This document shows positions 1,362 through 10,637 of a stretch of DNA of 21,877 bases, in pieces; position 1 is the stretch's first letter, and the number at the start of each line of letters is the position of its first letter. A program made the position numbers and the translations under genes. The notes under the pieces were generated by a model, which searched no databases, had not been told where the DNA came from, and saw nothing but the letters and a program-made list of their open reading frames with translations. Origin of the DNA: a virus; the IMG/VR virus record IMGVR_UViG_3300025645_000525, positions 1-21,877 of that record; one strand, 5' to 3'.

Positions 1362-1822
1362 ATCTTTTCTTTTATTAGTTTTTTGTTTTCTAGTTGAAGG
1401 TAATACTCATCATAAGTGTTAACTACATTATTTTTTTCTAGAACCTTAGCGTCTTTATAGTTTAGTGGATTATGAAACACATTAGTAAATATACAATCTT
1501 CAACAGCATAAACAGCTCTTTTAATACCTGGTTTAGATATTATTGTAGCAGGAGCCTCAATTGTTTGCCTTCCGTTTTCCTCATCAACAATTACCATTTT
1601 ACCTTTCAATAGAAAACTAACATGTTCTTTTAGATGTATCTTTCCTATAGAAAATATACCTTTAGGAATTTCTATTTGTCTTATGTGCATTCCATCTGCA
1701 AATGTGTTAGTTACAGGGCAAATGTCATTATCTCCAAAAGCAACTTGACCTTCAGGTAAATTACTTAAAGACTCTTGGAAATCTAATATACTGTCTCTTA
1801 TTTTCTTTACTAACTTATCCAT
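1358..1822 (-). CDS. Cupin-like (jelly-roll) protein in tail block
   Basis: The 154-aa product has an all-beta middle (about residues 45-120) with cupin spacing. There is a first strand pair with His63 and His67 followed by FLLKGKM, which resembles cupin motif 1 ending in its glycine turn. Next come a beta hairpin with an EENGR turn, the sequence APATIISKPGIKRAVYA with the Pro-Gly of motif 2, and a final FTNVFHNP with His117. Not all classical metal ligands are clear (motif 1 lacks a plain HxH..E), so it may be a structural jelly-roll and not an enzyme. The ends are helical and charged. The gene is coupled to both neighbours: its ATG overlaps the upstream TAA (TAATG) and its stop overlaps the next ATG. 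The context suggests a virion part or assembly factor. The fold call is moderate and the function is unknown. Confidence 0.65.
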   Translation of the reverse strand: MDKLVKKIRDSILDFQESLSNLPEGQVAFGDNDICPVTNTFADGMHIRQIEIPKGIFSIGKIHLKEHVSFLLKGKMVIVDEENGRQTIEAPATIISKPGIKRAVYAVEDCIFTNVFHNPLNYKDAKVLEKNNVVNTYDEYYLQLENKKLIKEKI

Positions 1823-3504
1823 TAATATCCATTGTTTTGAGTATAAGTTGTACTAACGTTAAACAATTGTTTTTCAGCACCTATATTTGTTGTGTTATCT
1901 GTTGATAATTTTACATTGGCATAAAATCCTTTTACTCCACTAATTTGCTGTCCAAAGTTAATTTCAGAGTCTGCAGCTTTACTAGCGTTTTGCAGATTAG
2001 CTACATATTTATTTTCTTTTAAATTAAACCCAGCGTAATATTTAGGTAATGGCGGATTAGTAGTATTGAAAGCTGTACTGTACAAAGCTCTATTAGCTAC
2101 TAAATAAAAATTTAATAAAACAAATTGAGCTGTATTTACGTTTTGACTAACAATTAAAACTGCTGTAGCTACATTATAGCTAACGACCGTGGTGTTTGCT
2201 GGAACACCTAGTCCACTCACTAGCGCACCCACTGGTATTAAACCTGTAACGTTGTTTAGGTTTATACTTGTTGTTGTAGATGCCTGTGCTGTTGTACCTG
2301 TTGATTCAGATATAACATACTCACCTTCGTGGTAACTACTAACACCTGACGTGAAATCAAAAGTATTACTCCAACCGTTGTTTAAGCTTATTTGTCCAGT
2401 TAAATCAGATGTATAACTAGAAACTTGCCAACCACTAGTTCCTTCGTAACCTATGGTCTGGAAACTTTTAGATGTAGCAGGGCTAGAATTTACAACAAAA
2501 GATACTGTACTAGGATATTGAACTCCATAAAAGTTACTTCTTTTAACAACACTTCCGGTTGGTGTTAACTCAACATAGTGTTTATATAACTTACCTTTGT
2601 ATGCTGTATAAAAATCGTTTTGAATGCTAAATATTTGCTCTGGTTTATAACTATAAAAAGAAGGCCAACCACTAGATCTTTCATCAAAAGATGATGTGTA
2701 ATACGGTAATAATGCAGGTTGAGATATCGGGTCTTTTTGCAAAGAAACAACGTACTCTGAGTTATGTACGTTATAACCACCCTGTATAAACCCGCTATAG
2801 CTAGCTGTATCTATTTTATTTAACTCATCTCTAAAAAAGTCTTTCATTCCAAGAGCTGATATTTCAGTAATACCGTTGTTGCTAAGTCTCAATATAGCGT
2901 TATTGTTTTTGTCTGCAAAATATTTTTGATAACCATAGACAGCAAAACTTTCTGGATTTTTACTTATACCGTATTCACCAGCATAAGGCTGAATTGTTCC
3001 AATAACTAAATTAGAGTTAGTTACAGCTCCACCGCCTTCTGCGGAGTATATCGCGTCTTTATCTATTAATGCCCTTGATACTTTTTGTTCTTGAAAAACA
3101 ACTAAATTAGAATCCTCCGCATAAAGCCTTTGTATTGAACCGTTGGAAGGATCTGCACTTTTTGTTATGTCTTCCGCTATAGAAAAAACGTTAGAGTTGT
3201 TTATTCCAGTTCTAGAATTAAATATTCCAGAGTATATTATTGAGTTAACTCTAAACGACGCAGAAGCTTGATCTTCTACTAAGTAAGCTTTAGCACCATA
3301 GTCTGTGGATGTATTATTAAATCCACCTCTAATTCTAGATTCTTCTATAACCCAATCTTGAGCGTCGTTTGTAACAGCAACAACAGGGTAACCTCCTATA
3401 TCTTCTGGTATACCTCTAGATCCGTTCCAAATAGGTTCCTTAGAAGAATTAGTTTTATTTAAAAAAAATGAATTGAAATATTTAACTTCTATTATTGCTG
3501 CCAT
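1822..3504 (-). CDS. crAss-like muzzle/stabilisation-type tail protein, second subunit
   Basis: The 560-aa beta-rich product has no signal peptide or membrane segment. Residues 145-230 contain a run (EGGG..., GEYGISKNPESFAVYG, KYFAD, AILRLSNNGITEIS, GMKDFFRDEL) that I associate with the C-terminal part of crAss-like muzzle/stabilisation proteins, which form the narrow tip of the short tail. Around residues 412-465 there is one copy of a beta-module (IPVGALVSGLGVPANTTVV) that also recurs in the 1701-aa protein upstream. It starts 30 nt after the stop of that gene and its own stop overlaps the ATG of the cupin-like gene. The simplest reading is that the muzzle function is divided between two polypeptides here. 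It could instead be an independent tail-hub or fibre protein that shares modules. Confidence 0.7.
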   Translation of the reverse strand: MAAIIEVKYFNSFFLNKTNSSKEPIWNGSRGIPEDIGGYPVVAVTNDAQDWVIEESRIRGGFNNTSTDYGAKAYLVEDQASASFRVNSIIYSGIFNSRTGINNSNVFSIAEDITKSADPSNGSIQRLYAEDSNLVVFQEQKVSRALIDKDAIYSAEGGGAVTNSNLVIGTIQPYAGEYGISKNPESFAVYGYQKYFADKNNNAILRLSNNGITEISALGMKDFFRDELNKIDTASYSGFIQGGYNVHNSEYVVSLQKDPISQPALLPYYTSSFDERSSGWPSFYSYKPEQIFSIQNDFYTAYKGKLYKHYVELTPTGSVVKRSNFYGVQYPSTVSFVVNSSPATSKSFQTIGYEGTSGWQVSSYTSDLTGQISLNNGWSNTFDFTSGVSSYHEGEYVISESTGTTAQASTTTSINLNNVTGLIPVGALVSGLGVPANTTVVSYNVATAVLIVSQNVNTAQFVLLNFYLVANRALYSTAFNTTNPPLPKYYAGFNLKENKYVANLQNASKAADSEINFGQQISGVKGFYANVKLSTDNTTNIGAEKQLFNVSTTYTQNNGY

Positions 3505-3534
3505 TTATATAATATTACTTATTTTTAACTTAAA

Positions 3535-6500
3535 TTACACATTAACCTGCCATGCTATGTTGTCTACATCATAATTGTTTTCATCTATATCAAACGTGCC
3601 ACTGGGGAAAGGTGTTGGTGAAGGGTAGGCGTAAAAGCGCCAACCAAACAAATTGGGAGCAGCATTATCACCAGTGTCTGTTATTGCGTAATTACCGATC
3701 TGTGGCGGTAGAGGATTAGGAAGAAGTATCGCAAAATAACCGTACGTTTCGGTGTCAGCCAGCCAAAGATCTATAACCGCTTGTTCTGAAACATTAGAAA
3801 ATCTTATGCTTTCATATAAAGGCAATGTATTTACAGACGCAAAATCTATATTTATAAAACCATTCCCGCCAAGCGAGCTTGTTAAAGGCGGTTGGATTGG
3901 CCCAAACATGGTTTGAATTGGCGCATACCCACCATATCCAGTAGGAAATTGAGAGATAAATCTGTTTGGAGGATTATCTAAACCAAACTCCGTGCTAAAA
4001 CTTAAAGTTGTTAAACTCTCTATACTACTCTCGTTAGACCAGGGACCATTATACAAATACCAACCCCAAGCTGCGCTACTAGCACCGCCGTATACTTCAA
4101 AAACTGTTATAGTTTGATACCATGTATCAAATCCGCCTGCATTATTAGCGCCACCAGTTGGACCGTATTTTCTTCGGAACTCCCTAGAGTATGAAAACTG
4201 CTTTACGTTTCTAACTTTAGCTCCAAAATCAATAACTATATCTATGCAGTCTTGATCATTTTGACCACCAGCATCTTGAACGCATATAGTTAATTCGTAT
4301 CTGTCTACAGGAACGTTACCTACTTGAGTATTTATTAGTTGAAACTTAGCTTCACCACCAACTATCGTGGGCTCGTCTAATATGTCAAAATAATTTACAT
4401 CACCTTGAGAGTTTGTTTGAGATGTTATTGTGCAACTGCCGTTTGAAAATATTGAAGCTAAATTTACATTATCTGCTCCATTCACGCAGTCAATAGTGGT
4501 TATGTTTTCAGTGTTATTTGTTATATTAAAAGTTGTACCGTCTAATGGGAGGTTTATTGTTGGTGCTACATTAGCTAGTATTAAATCTCTAGTAACATCT
4601 AAGTTTTGACCATTTACAACTGCTGTAAATTTTAATGAAAAAGAACGTAAGCTAGGAGGGCTAGAGCTATCATCTTCACCAAAATATATATCATTGTAGT
4701 AAGCCGCTGTTGTTATTATTTGAAACCCATTTTGATTAGGTAACGTTTGCACTAAAGTAAAATAATTCAAATCGGTTATATCCTGTATGCCATTACTAAC
4801 TTCTACTAACTCTAGCGGTGTTGTAATATCAACTATAGAAACTAAACTACCAAAATTGTCTAACACATAGAAAGGAGCCGATAATACATTTTCACCCAAA
4901 GCTAATCCCTCTGTAAAAGGAGTTTGGTTAAATTCAGTTAAAGTAGCTCCAGCAGAGTCTTGGTTTATAATAGCGTTGTTTAGGTCGGATATTAAACCAG
5001 AGGTTGATGTTTCCCAAAATATATCTAATAAACTTTCAACAGGTTTAGTCTCGTAAATAGCTAAGTACTGAATTCCAGGTGTAGAATCAGGTATTATAGT
5101 TATTGTTTGACCTAAAGTTACGGATTGAGGAGTATCAACTTGTAAAGTAGGAGCTGTAGTATAGGTTATGTTTGTTCCACTTGATACATTAACAATATTA
5201 CTAACCGTCAAGGTTACGCTTGGTGCTGTTCCAGTTATGTTTGTTATAGCTGTTCCAGCTGGAATACCATTTGCAGTAACTAAAGTTCCGTTTCCAGCAC
5301 CTCCAGTTGGTGCAGCGTCTACAATAAAAGAAGTATCTCCACCTGCAGGTGTTCCAGTTGTTACTTGAGCCGATCCAGCAGATGCTCCGTTTAAAAACTG
5401 AACAACTTTTAAGTCTTTTGGAAAATTATTAGATAAAACTATATCTCCAGGAATAATAGTAGATGTATCACCTGCAATATCTACTAACCTAAAAGTATCA
5501 GTTGTAGCAGATTCAGCTATGTTAGCAGTTACGGTGTCAAAGTTTGTTGTTGATATTTGACCTATTTTAGATTCCGTACTTATTCTAGCCACTAAAGGGT
5601 TTGACTCAATAGAGTAAAATTGAGGGAAATAATTAGGCCTTGGCACTTCAGAAGGATTATACTCAAATAAATCATTTAGAGTAGATATAGTTGAAACAGT
5701 GTCTGAAGATCTTCCGGGGTAATACTGCTCGTTTGAACTACCCAAGTCTGTTGTTGGATCTATTTCTATGTTAGTGTTTTGAACTCTACCGTAAAGTTGC
5801 ACAGAACTTCTAAACTGCTTTTGCTGAGGACCAACCTGTGACAAATCTCTAGGCACCTTGTTTATATTATCATTTATAAGTACAGTATGAGAAGTATTAC
5901 CTAGCTCTAAAGTAACATCTTCTGGATATGAAGCCATTATACCTGGTAAATAAACATTATAATACTCTTGTTCAGTTTGTTTAACAACTATCTTAAAGGA
6001 GTACCATCCTAGCGGATTGTAATCTAAGCTAGTTATATCTCCATTGTATAAACCTGGAGTGCCTGTGTTTAGATTTCTAGTAGAAGATATTACTTCATTG
6101 AAGAGTATTTTCAAAGAATCACCCGGCCAATCTGATGGCGTTTGTGAAATGTCAGAATAAGGAGAGTAAACAGTTGAACCAGAAAAAGCTTGTCCAAAAA
6201 ACCTTACAATTTCTTTATTATCAGATAAAATAACAGTCGACGTTCTACCAAACTTATCAGACAAAAGAACTCCTACTTGGTAGTTTCTGTTTTGTTTTAA
6301 AGAGCTGTTAGGGTATTCTATAATACTAGTGGTGTTAATTACATTTGATTCTGGTTCAAAATCTAAATCAACTACTCCGGCTGGAAAAGTTACTTCTCTG
6401 TTAAGCGATATAATAGCCTCGGTTGTTGAAGTTGAGCTAAAATAAATCGGTTGATTTTCCACTAATGTTACAATAGATGAACATGTTACATATTGCGCAT

Positions 6501-8640
6501 TATCACCAAGTGAAGGTCCTTCAAGTACTGAAAGTACCGTTGTTCCTGGAATAACTCCATTTCCACTAACCACTGCGCCTACTGGTATAAAACCATTTGT
6601 TTCTTTTACAAGAAAATCATCTGACGATCCTGATGAAGCTAATAATCCTGTTATAAAAACACCTTCACCATTGTTGTTTGTTGAAGAAACCAAAGTATTA
6701 GGAGGTATTGTAACGCCTGGCGTATTTGAAGATAATAAACTTCCAGGAATAAAACTACTTCCAGCTGTTAAGTCTATATCTATACGCTGTCCAGGAGCTA
6801 TAGTTCCACCTCCACCACTATATGTTGCTTCGTTTTCGTTTAATTCAAAATCAGACTTGTTGGAAACAGATACATTGTAATTTAAATACTTTGGTGGTGT
6901 GTGCTTGTTTTGATAGTTTGCATATATAACTCTATTACCAGCGATTTCTTGAGAAAGAGATCTTACTGGAATTTTATCGTAAACTCTAGTTAAATCTTTT
7001 TCTGGTAAAGTTTTAAAAGGTTTTTTAGATAAATAATCATAAACATAATAACTAGGTTCGCCAGAAGTTAAAATAGTATTATTCTCTAGTGTTTGAATTA
7101 AGTCTAAAGTTATTTCTCCACCAATAGAGGGATTGTTTACATCTGTAGGTATATATGTTAGAACCTTTGGTTTACCAACAATACCAGTACCTGATATGAT
7201 ACTTCCAATGTCTATACCTCCTTGTAGATTGTCTATAATAATTGTAGTAGAAGCTGTAACAGCTCCATTAACAGTAAACGTTCCAGAAGAAGTTGCAATA
7301 TCGCCTATGACAACTGTATCAACAACTTTAACAGCTAAAGAGTTTGATTCTTTATATAGTATGTCTATTTCTTTTATTTTTAAACTATTTTCTAAGTTGT
7401 AGTTTAAAGATGGCAGAGGTATTCTAAGCTTTATTTTATCTAATTTGTTTTCTACAAAATAAACAACTGTACTTCTATAAGCGTCAGCTTGATTATCTAG
7501 CTCTTGTAGGTTAAGGTCGTTTTCTTTTACATACATAAAATATCCGTCTTGCTTTGGAATAAATGCGATTTGAGTAAAAGGAGCAAATAAAGAATACTCA
7601 TTATCATCAAACCTAAATCTATAAGAAAATCTAACAAATTTGTCTTCTAAAAAGTCTGGATCTCCTGAGAAATTAACATCATAATAAGGATTTGGATTTA
7701 ATACTATTTTCTCACTAGTAACAAGCGCTGGTAGTATTCCTCCAGTTATTGTAATTTCCCAAAATGGAATTAATGGAGTAGTTGTATCGTCGTATATAGC
7801 AGACGCTACCGTAGCTCCTGCAACTGGCGTTAGTCCACCTCCAAAAACGGGATTACCAAGAACCGAAACCAATGCTCCAGAATCATAAATAGATCCGATT
7901 TCTTGTATGTCACCTTTGAAAGATGTTACTCTTACAACAGTATCACTAACTCTAGTTAACACGTTTCCAGCACCTCCGTTTGGATAGTATAAAGAACTGA
8001 CATCATACATGGTAGTTTCATATTCACCAACAGTGTTAGATAAATAGCTTTCTGAATAAAGTTCCATGCAGGAATATGGATTGTATTTTGCTACAGATAT
8101 TTGATCCTCAAAAGTGTAATAAGTTGCATTTGTAAAAATCCTTGTTGGATTCGCTAGTTCTATATTTATTTTTCTAGGTTGATTTCTATTGTCAGTCCAA
8201 AACAATAACGTTTCTAAAAGATTTACTCCATATATTGGATTTTTTTTAGAAAAATTTAAAAAAGCCCCTTTAACCAAGCAAACAGGTGCAGAGGCATTAG
8301 GATTACATGCAAAAATAAAATGATTAGAACCAACTCCCGTAGGATAGTAATCTTTATTAGGGTTACTTGGGTCTGGATTGTCTGTTAAAAATAAAAAAAC
8401 AGTGTTAGAATTATCATCTTCTAGGTGACCTATACAATATAGATTATTAACCCCTGTTATAGCTTCAAAGTCGAAAACAGGATAGTTGCCTAAAACGTTT
8501 TCAACAGTACCAACACCGTCACCTTCTGATTTACTAACCTGTATGTTGTAAGCGTCTCTATATTCTCCGCTTGGTATTAAGCGAGCGTCTAAGTCTTTAT
8601 TCATCTTAGACCTTAAAAAAGTATTTATAGCTTTAGCCAT
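3535..8640 (-). CDS. Giant crAss-like muzzle/tail stabilisation protein with repeated beta-modules
   Basis: At 1701 aa this is the largest gene in the window. The N-terminus (residues 12-52; KMNKDLDARLIPSGEYRDA, then NIQVS and VGTVENVLGN) is the signature I associate with crAss-like stabilisation/muzzle proteins. A beta-rich body follows, with blocks typical of that family (TDNRNQPRKINIELANP; FVRFSYRFRFDDNEYSLFAPFT). It is interrupted by several Gly/Ser/Thr-rich modules built around IPxGT or SGxGI turns (about residues 230-300, 440-500, 605-735 and 1040-1160). Near the end, about 1365-1478, there is an Ig/cadherin-like domain with four cysteines, and then a Trp/Tyr/Gly-rich C-terminal domain of about 220 residues. 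It follows the adaptor-type gene by 5 nt. Role: the muzzle or tail-tip assembly, with the terminal domains possibly contacting the host surface (inference). Confidence 0.8.
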   Translation of the reverse strand: MAKAINTFLRSKMNKDLDARLIPSGEYRDAYNIQVSKSEGDGVGTVENVLGNYPVFDFEAITGVNNLYCIGHLEDDNSNTVFLFLTDNPDPSNPNKDYYPTGVGSNHFIFACNPNASAPVCLVKGAFLNFSKKNPIYGVNLLETLLFWTDNRNQPRKINIELANPTRIFTNATYYTFEDQISVAKYNPYSCMELYSESYLSNTVGEYETTMYDVSSLYYPNGGAGNVLTRVSDTVVRVTSFKGDIQEIGSIYDSGALVSVLGNPVFGGGLTPVAGATVASAIYDDTTTPLIPFWEITITGGILPALVTSEKIVLNPNPYYDVNFSGDPDFLEDKFVRFSYRFRFDDNEYSLFAPFTQIAFIPKQDGYFMYVKENDLNLQELDNQADAYRSTVVYFVENKLDKIKLRIPLPSLNYNLENSLKIKEIDILYKESNSLAVKVVDTVVIGDIATSSGTFTVNGAVTASTTIIIDNLQGGIDIGSIISGTGIVGKPKVLTYIPTDVNNPSIGGEITLDLIQTLENNTILTSGEPSYYVYDYLSKKPFKTLPEKDLTRVYDKIPVRSLSQEIAGNRVIYANYQNKHTPPKYLNYNVSVSNKSDFELNENEATYSGGGGTIAPGQRIDIDLTAGSSFIPGSLLSSNTPGVTIPPNTLVSSTNNNGEGVFITGLLASSGSSDDFLVKETNGFIPVGAVVSGNGVIPGTTVLSVLEGPSLGDNAQYVTCSSIVTLVENQPIYFSSTSTTEAIISLNREVTFPAGVVDLDFEPESNVINTTSIIEYPNSSLKQNRNYQVGVLLSDKFGRTSTVILSDNKEIVRFFGQAFSGSTVYSPYSDISQTPSDWPGDSLKILFNEVISSTRNLNTGTPGLYNGDITSLDYNPLGWYSFKIVVKQTEQEYYNVYLPGIMASYPEDVTLELGNTSHTVLINDNINKVPRDLSQVGPQQKQFRSSVQLYGRVQNTNIEIDPTTDLGSSNEQYYPGRSSDTVSTISTLNDLFEYNPSEVPRPNYFPQFYSIESNPLVARISTESKIGQISTTNFDTVTANIAESATTDTFRLVDIAGDTSTIIPGDIVLSNNFPKDLKVVQFLNGASAGSAQVTTGTPAGGDTSFIVDAAPTGGAGNGTLVTANGIPAGTAITNITGTAPSVTLTVSNIVNVSSGTNITYTTAPTLQVDTPQSVTLGQTITIIPDSTPGIQYLAIYETKPVESLLDIFWETSTSGLISDLNNAIINQDSAGATLTEFNQTPFTEGLALGENVLSAPFYVLDNFGSLVSIVDITTPLELVEVSNGIQDITDLNYFTLVQTLPNQNGFQIITTAAYYNDIYFGEDDSSSPPSLRSFSLKFTAVVNGQNLDVTRDLILANVAPTINLPLDGTTFNITNNTENITTIDCVNGADNVNLASIFSNGSCTITSQTNSQGDVNYFDILDEPTIVGGEAKFQLINTQVGNVPVDRYELTICVQDAGGQNDQDCIDIVIDFGAKVRNVKQFSYSREFRRKYGPTGGANNAGGFDTWYQTITVFEVYGGASSAAWGWYLYNGPWSNESSIESLTTLSFSTEFGLDNPPNRFISQFPTGYGGYAPIQTMFGPIQPPLTSSLGGNGFINIDFASVNTLPLYESIRFSNVSEQAVIDLWLADTETYGYFAILLPNPLPPQIGNYAITDTGDNAAPNLFGWRFYAYPSPTPFPSGTFDIDENNYDVDNIAWQVNV

Positions 8641-8645
8641 TTATT

Positions 8646-9875
8646 TTAGTGTTTAATCCATTTAGATTTACCTCTCATAACCTGAGTAATTTCCTCAGTC
8701 TTAATGTTAGATAATCTTATTTTTGCATTTCTTAATTTAGCAGACCTTTCTTTCTTGAGTCTTTGAACCACGTATTCTGGTTGATTAGCTCGTGTAGATA
8801 TTACAGCATGTAACACGTGTGCGTATAAAGCCTCTTCTGCCATTTTGGGTATTCTAGTATCTGAATCATATGCTAAGCCATCAGAGATGTACTCTAGCAC
8901 GATTAGACGTCCTACTAGTTGACTAGAAAAAGACATCTTACCTTCTCTTTCGTTTAGATTAAAATAACCATTAACATTAGCATATTGAGGATCTAAGCCA
9001 TATAATTGTCCAAAGTTTTGGAAATTAATAAACTCTCCGTTTTGGTTAAGATTTAAAGAAAAATCATTTATACCCGTTAAATTGTTATTTAATAAATCGC
9101 CACTACTATTACTATGCCATCTTTCTTGAGTGATCGATGTACCTTCAATATCTGATCCAAAGTTGTCTTGAGTAGGAACTCCAGTGCTATCTTGAATTTG
9201 AGTGTAGTAAGGACTTGTGGTTAAGTTGTTTGTAGGATAGATAGGATGTAAAACACCTGCTTGATCTACCCAAGAGCATTTAACGTAATTTACATAATCT
9301 TGAGGTAAAGCTAAAGTTAAACTGGCTGGTATTGTTAATTCAGCTGATTTAATACTCTTTAAAGTGTCATAGCTAAATTCTTGTAAACCTCTTTTAGCAT
9401 GAAACAATATATCAGATCTCTTAGCGGTTTGAACTAACTTTCCATCACCAACATAACCAACCATAAAGTTATCTATAGCGTCATCTAAAGTTGTATAAGC
9501 GTAACTACCATAGTTATCTTCAACAGCTTGTCCATAAGCTTTTTCAGCCTCCGTAGTTCCATACTTACCACCATCTAAGATTTTTAATTGAACAACTATG
9601 TATAAACCATTCGCTGGTTCAGAACCTGCTTCAAAAGTTATAGCATTGTTAACTACTGTGAAAACAGTTAAATACTCAACATAAGAACCTGGTAGACCAG
9701 TAGTACTAGTGTATAATTTAAAATTATTTAAAGCATAGTCGACGTTATTGGGATCGAAGCTACCTAAAATTAAATTTGTATCAAAAGTAGTTTCAAAAGA
9801 TAACTTAACACCGTCACCTCTAAAACCTTGAGCGCCTTGATAGTACTGTTGATTAGTTTCTGTTATTAGGCTCAT
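8646..9875 (-). CDS. Neck/adaptor-type structural protein (crAss-like ring or tail-tube family)
   Basis: The 409-aa protein starts with a beta-rich domain (residues 1-115; GVKLSFETTF, FKLYTSTTG, ANGLYIVVQ). It continues with a helical segment carrying TLDDAIDNFMVGYVGDGKL and FHAKRGLQEFSYD, then LTIPASLTLALPQDYVNYVK, and closes with a basic helical tail (RLKKERSAKLRNAKIRLSN). The central DDAIDNF...L..AKRGLQEF pattern is what I associate with head-to-tail adaptor/ring proteins of crAss-like phages, similar in role to P22 gp4 or T7 gp11. It lies 3 nt after the 252-aa ring gene and 5 nt before the muzzle gene, a spacing consistent with co-assembly in the neck. The start is the ATG right after a TAA (TAAATG context), which recurs at several genes here. 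The role is confident; the exact family member is less so. Confidence 0.72.
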   Translation of the reverse strand: MSLITETNQQYYQGAQGFRGDGVKLSFETTFDTNLILGSFDPNNVDYALNNFKLYTSTTGLPGSYVEYLTVFTVVNNAITFEAGSEPANGLYIVVQLKILDGGKYGTTEAEKAYGQAVEDNYGSYAYTTLDDAIDNFMVGYVGDGKLVQTAKRSDILFHAKRGLQEFSYDTLKSIKSAELTIPASLTLALPQDYVNYVKCSWVDQAGVLHPIYPTNNLTTSPYYTQIQDSTGVPTQDNFGSDIEGTSITQERWHSNSSGDLLNNNLTGINDFSLNLNQNGEFINFQNFGQLYGLDPQYANVNGYFNLNEREGKMSFSSQLVGRLIVLEYISDGLAYDSDTRIPKMAEEALYAHVLHAVISTRANQPEYVVQRLKKERSAKLRNAKIRLSNIKTEEITQVMRGKSKWIKH

Positions 9876-9878
9876 TTA

Positions 9879-10637
9879 TTATGATTTTTCGTTAATTGAA
9901 TTTTGTTGAATATCTTGAGCAGCCGTCTGTATAACGGTAGGGTCATTTATTATAACTCCGCAATATTTTAATATATGCATAACTATATTTGTTTGCTCTG
10001 AATTGTCTAGTTCAAAATTAACAGAGTTTGTAGAATTGTGTAAGTATTGACCGGAACTACCAATTGTAAAGTTCCAATTTGGATTTAATGGGTAAACCAC
10101 GCAATTAGCTAATACAGAGTCTGGAAGAGGGTTTATTATTAAAGAAGAACTAGTAGATGTGCCACTGCTTAAGTAGTATATTGGATTTTTTTTTGTAGGT
10201 AGAGTTAGTTTTGATCTTACTATTTTGTTGTAATCACTTTTTGAAGTAAACTGAGTTATTGAATCGTATTTAGTTTGACCATCATACGTTGATATAATAG
10301 ACCCAAATTTACGCACAGTTCTATTTATAGAACCAGTATCTGACAACTGAGGTTGAATAAAAGCATTTTCTGCGTTTATAGTTAATTGTAATTCTTGTTC
10401 AAACGGCGTTAATTTTGATTGTATGTCTTTAGACATATTAAAAAACTCAGTGTCATTTTGACTATTATTTTGATTCGGTCTATTTAATTGATTTCCATCT
10501 GGAAAATATGATTCAAATATTTCCAACTGAACCTGAGCCGCTAAGCTATTAAACTCAGCAGGTGGAACGTAACCTCTTTGTTCTTTGTTTAATATATACA
10601 AGACCGTTTGATACACAGTGTTTACATTTACCGCCAT
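9879..10637 (-). CDS. Ring/neck structural protein (crAss-like)
   Basis: The 252-aa protein opens with TVYQTVLYILNKEQRGYVPP then AEFNSLAAQVQLEIFESYF, a helical signature (NKEQRGY..P.EFN..A..AQ..IF..YF) that I recall from ring/neck proteins of crAss-like and related marine Bacteroidetes phages. The middle is a beta-rich part with Ser/Thr-rich loops, and a helical C-terminus follows (VMHILKYCGVIINDPTVIQTA). There is no membrane segment. Its leader contains the 16-nt A-rich element at 10641-10656. The gene sits between the 274-aa protein and the adaptor-type gene, which it precedes by 3 nt, in keeping with a part of the portal-proximal ring stack. The exact equivalence to a numbered ring protein of a reference phage cannot be decided from sequence reading alone. 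Confidence 0.72.
   Translation of the reverse strand: MAVNVNTVYQTVLYILNKEQRGYVPPAEFNSLAAQVQLEIFESYFPDGNQLNRPNQNNSQNDTEFFNMSKDIQSKLTPFEQELQLTINAENAFIQPQLSDTGSINRTVRKFGSIISTYDGQTKYDSITQFTSKSDYNKIVRSKLTLPTKKNPIYYLSSGTSTSSSLIINPLPDSVLANCVVYPLNPNWNFTIGSSGQYLHNSTNSVNFELDNSEQTNIVMHILKYCGVIINDPTVIQTAAQDIQQNSINEKS

Follow-up and report, generated by a model that had tools for sequence, protein, structure and literature searches.

The window analysed here is a 21,877-base IMG/VR virus record, taken at its whole length, and carries on its minus strand the genes for TerL, portal, capsid protein, ring1, g8646, MUZ-N (1701 aa) and MUZ-C (560 aa), in this order. Matches to PHROG families were obtained for TerL (6681), portal (6547), the capsid protein (13704), ring1 (14543) and g8646 (13977). 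The TerL was 64% identical to that of the uncultured Manatee Spring podovirus (MW202828), the closest named genome by this protein, and about 45% identical to those of the Flavobacterium elemo phages; these relatives suggest that the hosts are Bacteroidota. An Rfam search of the window gave no match.

The two genes located between the capsid gene and the muzzle encode virion proteins. The first, ring1 (252 aa, positions 9879–10637, minus strand), is a homologue of phi38:1 gp95 (hhalign probability 99), and its label follows the crAss001 gene order as an analogy and does not rest on homology. The second, g8646 (409 aa, 8646–9875, minus strand), is a homologue of phi38:1 gp96, and about 120 residues at its N-terminus lay outside the matches to its PHROG and to gp96. 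The assignment of both proteins to particular rings of crAss001 was dropped (hhalign probabilities below 4%), and therefore the ring that touches the muzzle is not named here. Directly after MUZ-C, a 154-aa gene was found (1358–1822), which was 100% identical in the related locus L005, was not found in the 12 other relatives compared and gave no Pfam match.

MUZ-N (3535–8640, minus strand) matched PHROG 14478 (E 3e-32), and MUZ-C (1822–3504, minus strand) matched positions 920–1222 of the same family (E 1.9e-45). When the first 200 residues of MUZ-N were scanned alone, PF25731 (crAss_MUZ) was detected with 41.8 bits against a cut-off of 27, a match that was not found with the whole protein as the query, and the C-terminal muzzle domain PF25729 (crAss_MUZ_C) was detected on MUZ-C (41.6, cut-off 27). 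Furthermore, MUZ-N 6–190 aligned to residues 7–180 of crAss001 gp44 (probability 87) and MUZ-C 103–371 to residues 1034–1294 (probability 95); the middle of MUZ-N gave no alignment to gp44, and PDB sequence searches with MUZ-N, MUZ-C or the first 190 residues of MUZ-N retrieved no relative. Following the domain limits of gp44 in the accessible part of PMC10172136, MUZ-N would comprise the ring-joining part, the first blades, the IG domains and the crass domain, and MUZ-C the remainder of the propeller. By the family membership of both halves, the locus is a Crassvirales-type muzzle, encoded here by two ORFs and not as a single polypeptide. An earlier note on this DNA had correctly placed its region of interest (3535–4545) at the 3' end of the 1701-aa ORF, but the muzzle does not stop where this ORF does. 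The remaining beta-propeller part is encoded by the next gene, and the annotation of the downstream 560-aa gene is corrected accordingly to the other half of the muzzle.

The point at which the muzzle is cut was located by comparison with single-gene muzzles. In a conservation profile of 58 distinct rows, the conserved framework covered residues 1–1217 (4990–8640, minus strand), and residues 1193–1217 matched the motif that precedes the junction in single-gene muzzles. Among 138 stretches of MUZ-N compared with this motif, the top three were those holding residues 1193–1212 whole, with probabilities of 95.6–95.9%, followed by partly overlapping stretches (63 and 8%), and the best stretch outside reached 4.5%. 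On the other side of the junction, the IEVKYFN-type strand that opens MUZ-C corresponds to FFNCF or FFNCY of the single-gene muzzles. In fused muzzles the two motifs were separated by 30–37 residues, a range that comes from the 47 of 83 fused-labelled muzzles in which both of our hand-made regular expressions matched (36 lacked one of the two), whereas 484 residues, a stop codon and a 30-nt gap lie between them in the window. The C-terminal end of MUZ-N is therefore an extension at the linker.

The gap between the muzzle genes (3505–3534, minus strand) contains a conserved element, AAATAAGTAATAT, as an exact match at 3512–3524. In 36 of 54 gaps, the motif TAAGTRAT was present 16–19 nt upstream of the start of MUZ-C (mean of 0.4 and largest value of 5 after shuffling), and it was observed neither before each of six other genes (0/54 or 0/52) nor at the ends of fused muzzles (0/66). 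It may be a promoter or translation signal for MUZ-C.

The extent of the split was surveyed through a viral-contig search with MUZ-N, which matched 407 stretches; the best 80 were taken, together with four further loci and the window. Contigs cut by their ends were left out. In all of the 66 loci with both genes complete the muzzle was split, with gaps of 17–42 nt, and in none was it fused; some contigs are held twice among these entries, which correspond to 54 distinct muzzles. It is highly improbable that the split stems from errors in the assembly or in the calling of starts, or that both frames are joined by read-through or frameshifting. Contig errors do occur, and the muzzle frames of the Maribacter phage Panino (PP540027) and of L143 are broken at other places, but the 66 entries agree on the split, and MUZ-C has its own start codon, with a beginning of the IEVKYFN type that is much alike across the rows listed and is preceded by the conserved upstream element. 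Moreover, 27 of the 54 distinct gaps were out of frame and 26 were in frame with a further stop, and a single one was in frame without a stop; with 53 of 54 gaps closed in this way, read-through across the junction was ruled out, and frameshifting was dropped as well.

In a second search, with the Manatee Spring muzzle as the query, 80 of 181 relatives were taken, and most of these muzzles were one gene at the cut point of the window. Altogether, 188 loci were labelled at this point: 81 fused, 84 split and 23 unassigned. On a tree of the capsid protein (MCP) the label changed once, at a branch with an SH-aLRT of 100. The tree was built quickly under LG+G4 from 99 capsid proteins, 55 of them from split and 44 from fused loci, and from it the unassigned loci, duplicate contigs and identical or incomplete capsid proteins were left out; it was midpoint-rooted for drawing only, contains long branches among the named phages, and its sampling follows the two queries. 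The labels of Panino, L143 and L183, which the automatic rule called split, were set by hand to fused, their frames being broken elsewhere.

In Panino (L088), the muzzle frame was broken inside the propeller part, through a sequencing error or a real break, and one tblastn match spanned two annotated genes; the break in L143 was also at a place different from the cut point of the window. A different cut of the muzzle was observed in 43 of the 81 loci fused at this point, including phi13:2, in which the last part of the muzzle lies on a separate gene (for example, 23565–24368 of L107, a flipped locus, and 12123–12848 of L090). A two-gene muzzle was not mentioned in the literature searched, to which few subscription papers belonged, nor in the accessible parts of PMC10172136, PMC12386605, PMC10136315 and PMC7077304, and so it is not claimed here as unpublished.

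The extension of MUZ-N begins with a pair of cadherin-like domains. In a structure model of residues 1201–1701, built from 15 rows (mean pLDDT 64, mostly 80–90 over residues 1231–1480), two such domains were found in tandem, aligning with cadherins over model residues 30–273. Domain 1 comprises residues ~1230–1357 (4570–4953, minus strand) and domain 2 residues ~1358–1473 (4222–4569, minus strand; model residues 157–273 are residues 1357–1473 of the protein). The second domain matched protocadherin-15 EC6-7 with a Z-score of 10.4 and an rmsd of 2.0 Å over 92 residues, and solved cadherins were at the top of the Foldseek list (E 2.8e-8). In BFVD, the matches of the same model had low TM-scores and were heterogeneous in name, with cadherin or fibronectin in several cases. 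No match to the Pfam cadherin family was obtained with residues 1366–1480 (to E 10) or with 57 tails (to E 0.1), and scans of these tails against Pfam and PHROG gave weak matches only (Big_13 in 3 of 57, best E 0.0026). The calcium motifs generally regarded as canonical for cadherins were not evident in the linker LILANVAPTI on reading its sequence. The fold thus bears out the cadherin-like domain that the earlier note had proposed at residues ~1365–1478, from its strands and four cysteines; the preceding domain (~1230–1356) had been overlooked. The cysteines are indeed present, at positions 1385, 1403, 1453 and 1465, but among 14 aligned relatives only the three nearest retain the full set.

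The cadherin-like pair is followed by a C-terminal head at residues 1479–1701 (3538–4206, minus strand), which an iterated HMM found in 15 distinct members of one subclade only; no other ORF of the loci matched it, and at this sensitivity neither did the other 43 distinct tails. The core common to the 15 members consists of FEV..G....GWYLYNGPW, one Trp that never varies and a conserved strand that closes the protein, and the loops between these core residues have very different lengths, with many insertions and deletions. A short-looped homologue was modelled with a pLDDT of 63 and a pTM of 0.71, and showed a better predicted alpha/beta core that included the last strand. At this model quality, no PDB fold reached a Z-score of 2 or more, the best Foldseek E-value was 2.2, and no lectin or carbohydrate-binding module fold was matched; the structure prediction proposed in the earlier note therefore yielded no glycan-binding fold. 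Beyond the loci already in the set, a viral-contig search with the tail alignment added no contigs. A diversity-generating retroelement is a very improbable driver of the variation in the tail: the variable region does lie at the C-terminus of a tail-tip protein, but a crude scan of the ORFs for reverse-transcriptase motifs in stretches of up to ~10 kb on either side found none, and the changes include many insertions and deletions.

The composition of the tail was compared with that of the rest of the gene, since the earlier note had described this end as very rich in Trp, Tyr, Phe and Gly and raised in GC. The enrichment held for Trp (7 of 223 residues after position 1478, 5 of 1478 before it; Fisher p 3e-4) and marginally for Phe (p 0.046), and was not significant for Tyr and Gly (p 0.19 and 0.23). 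The shift in GC was confirmed, with 41.2% at 3541–4200 against 34.0% in the rest of the gene and one 60-nt line at 52%. Among 1479 overlapping windows of 223 codons within the gene, the tail ranked third for GC and fourth for GC3 (0.31, against 0.18 as the mean of the non-overlapping windows). From the codon usage of the rest of the gene a GC of 37.1% was expected for the tail, so that about 3 of the 7 points correspond to its amino-acid make-up. However, in 16 of 16 relatives compared, hand-chosen from 57 other distinct full-length rows and including some with unrelated tails, GC was higher over the last 200 codons than over the first 1200. Since the rise is also present where the tails are unrelated in sequence, it is a general trait of this gene end and neither marks nor dates an import.

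Along MUZ-N, the lowest mean identity among 11 close pairs was found at residues 1621–1680 (3601–3780, minus strand), within the head; in its two 30-residue bins, 6 and 8 of the 11 pairs fell below 70% identity, the latter at residues 1651–1680. Further changeable patches were detected at residues ~241–300, 601–760 (6361–6840, minus strand) and 1081–1170 (5131–5400, minus strand). Amino-acid identity of the window to L001, L002 and L004 was 85, 81 and 54% at residues 1541–1701, against 97, 89 and 81% at residues 1361–1478. The dN/dS at 1541–1701 was 0.22–0.29, well below 1, and similar or higher values were obtained elsewhere (0.30 at 1111–1360 against L001, and 0.88 at 601–760 against L002). 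A repeat domain of about 65 residues, with the signature GIPxGTxV, was present in 2–5 copies per MUZ-N and 0–3 copies per MUZ-C in the 54 genomes; those of the window are at MUZ-N 463–525, 673–739, 1046–1095 and 1112–1163 and at MUZ-C 410–475. The patches 601–760, with one copy, and 1081–1170 coincide with this repeat.

Local divergence at this end was abrupt in two other pairs of near-identical muzzles. Between L071 and L070, nucleotide identity dropped from 94 to 63% at residue 1263, and between L025 and L084 from 95 to 72% at residue 1403; it stayed low towards the end, while the MUZ-C genes differed by only 2–8%. The tails within each pair are still mutual best matches, and therefore both rapid divergence at this place and an exchange between related alleles are possible. 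Between the window and L005, its nearest muzzle, nucleotide identity dropped only from 96 to 88%, with a break near residue 1454, and no sharp loss therefore marks a recent swap here. The exchanged receptor-binding domain proposed by the earlier note stands in part: the gene is of the muzzle type, a cadherin-like domain is present and the most changeable stretch follows it, and the sharp loss of similarity against relatives that it had anticipated was observed in the two other pairs, but the window shows a mild drop and no mark of a recent swap.

These data make it unlikely that a foreign receptor-binding domain, recognisable by its composition, was recently imported as the tail. The abrupt divergence in both pairs and the higher GC (41% against 34%) and GC3 would agree with such an origin. 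Nevertheless, the window tail showed homology over its full extent to the tails of L001, L002 and L004, and more distantly to eleven others, with a mild step only; the GC rise is shared by all of the relatives checked; and no match to the tail was obtained by tblastn in sequenced phages, nor in genome contigs, where 8 stretches matched a pattern and none was confirmed.

It is less easily set aside, although still doubtful, that the extension is mainly structural, serving as a spacer or as an interface, either among the muzzle subunits or towards MUZ-C, its variation being due to relaxed constraint and co-evolution rather than to receptor choice. Within the subclade the last strand is conserved, and the model places it inside the domain; moreover, the tails of six relatives extend only 186–225 residues past position 1361. 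A purely structural part would not be expected from variation confined to loops between invariant core residues, nor from a stretch that differs strongly between muzzles nearly identical elsewhere. Relaxed constraint may also contribute to the faster change at the end of MUZ-N.

The inheritance of the muzzle genes was then compared with that of their neighbours. With L066, the window shared a capsid protein 99% identical, whereas identity was 42% in ring1, 32–65% in MUZ-C and 39–59% in the MUZ-N framework (32% in the patch 601–760), and the head had no match. With L005 the situation was reversed, with 75% in the capsid protein, 98% in ring1, 85–97% in MUZ-N and 96% in MUZ-C; g8646 was 77–79% identical to both. 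Across 54 genomes, the nearest neighbour by MUZ-N 761–1060 was also the nearest by ring1 in 39 and by MUZ-C 1–370 in 40, against 19 by g8646 and 15 by the capsid protein. Segments of MUZ-N, MUZ-C and ring1 shared nearest neighbours in 37–43 of the 54 genomes, and the corresponding values were 15–18 for the capsid protein and 19–22 for g8646. ring1 prevailed over g8646 in 21 cases against 1 (sign test p 1e-5, to be taken as a guide because the genomes are related). Spearman correlations of whole-gene distances were low (0.33 for MUZ-N and MUZ-C, 0.08 for MUZ-N and ring1), and the co-inheritance is therefore visible only among near relatives. As judged from these identities, the larger exchanged unit is ring1 plus both muzzle genes, with g8646 between them skipped. 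The shared nearest neighbours were read as compatibility of ring1 with both chains.

Taken together, the reading we prefer, with a probability of roughly 0.6, is that the tail of MUZ-N extends the C-terminus of the first of two chains in a crAss-like muzzle and bears a host-contacting head on a stalk. Compared with single-gene muzzles, the cut in the gene lies at a short linker, where the first chain carries about 480 additional residues, namely the cadherin-like pair and a head of alpha/beta type whose loops vary. MUZ-N and MUZ-C would fold together into one hexameric muzzle, and by analogy with crAss001 the head would be situated at the tail tip, the cadherin-like pair serving as a stalk that keeps it pointing outward. 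The fast-changing head on this stalk probably touches the host cell and would there contact a receptor. A contact of its loops with the host surface is proposed as the reason for their fast change and their exchange between related phages, and, as has been suggested for crAss001, it might lead to the opening of the gate. Likewise, we propose that ring1 and the muzzle pair share their inheritance because they have to fit one another. In the accessible part of PMC10172136, the distal muzzle is proposed to contact the host, and crassvirus muzzles are stated to differ in length through insertions into the crass and IG2 regions.

A more far-reaching account is offered tentatively. A gene fission that occurred only once and is clade-wide might have produced an interlocked two-chain muzzle, with the propeller distributed across two polypeptides and the freed chain end turned into a replaceable adhesin head on a cadherin stalk. 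Co-selection of the pair with one ring protein would be strong enough for joint inheritance, although the intervening gene has a different line of descent, so that patterns of inheritance might by themselves reveal contact partners inside an unseen tail.

The crAss-like phages rank among the most abundant that are known, and host recognition and opening at their tail tip are a standing question. A naturally split muzzle shows a point at which the protein tolerates a cut without loss of function, and indicates which part is likeliest to be turned towards the host. Additionally, the head constitutes a short, expressible domain family, with 15 distinct members available for direct tests of receptor binding.

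Compared with known systems, residues 1230–1473 have the same fold as the extracellular domains of cadherins, although the Pfam cadherin match is absent here. In the Manatee Spring podovirus (MW202828), the genes for terminase, portal, capsid and muzzle follow each other as in the window, and its muzzle shares the pre-junction motif and carries the FFNCF motif; unlike that of the window, it continues through the junction as one gene, in which this place is taken by about 30 residues, and its last domain is on a separate gene, through another cut point. The muzzles of phi38:1 (gp97), elemoF and Gundel_1 are homologous to both halves, but they are single genes of 1324, 1493 and 1386 aa, respectively, with the junction motifs close together. 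Finally, gp44 of crAss001 (Bayfield et al. 2023, PMC10172136) has profile kinship to both the start of MUZ-N and MUZ-C. It is one chain of 1371 aa, whereas the muzzle described here is encoded by two genes and bears, at the cut, a cadherin-like and variable extension of 480 residues.
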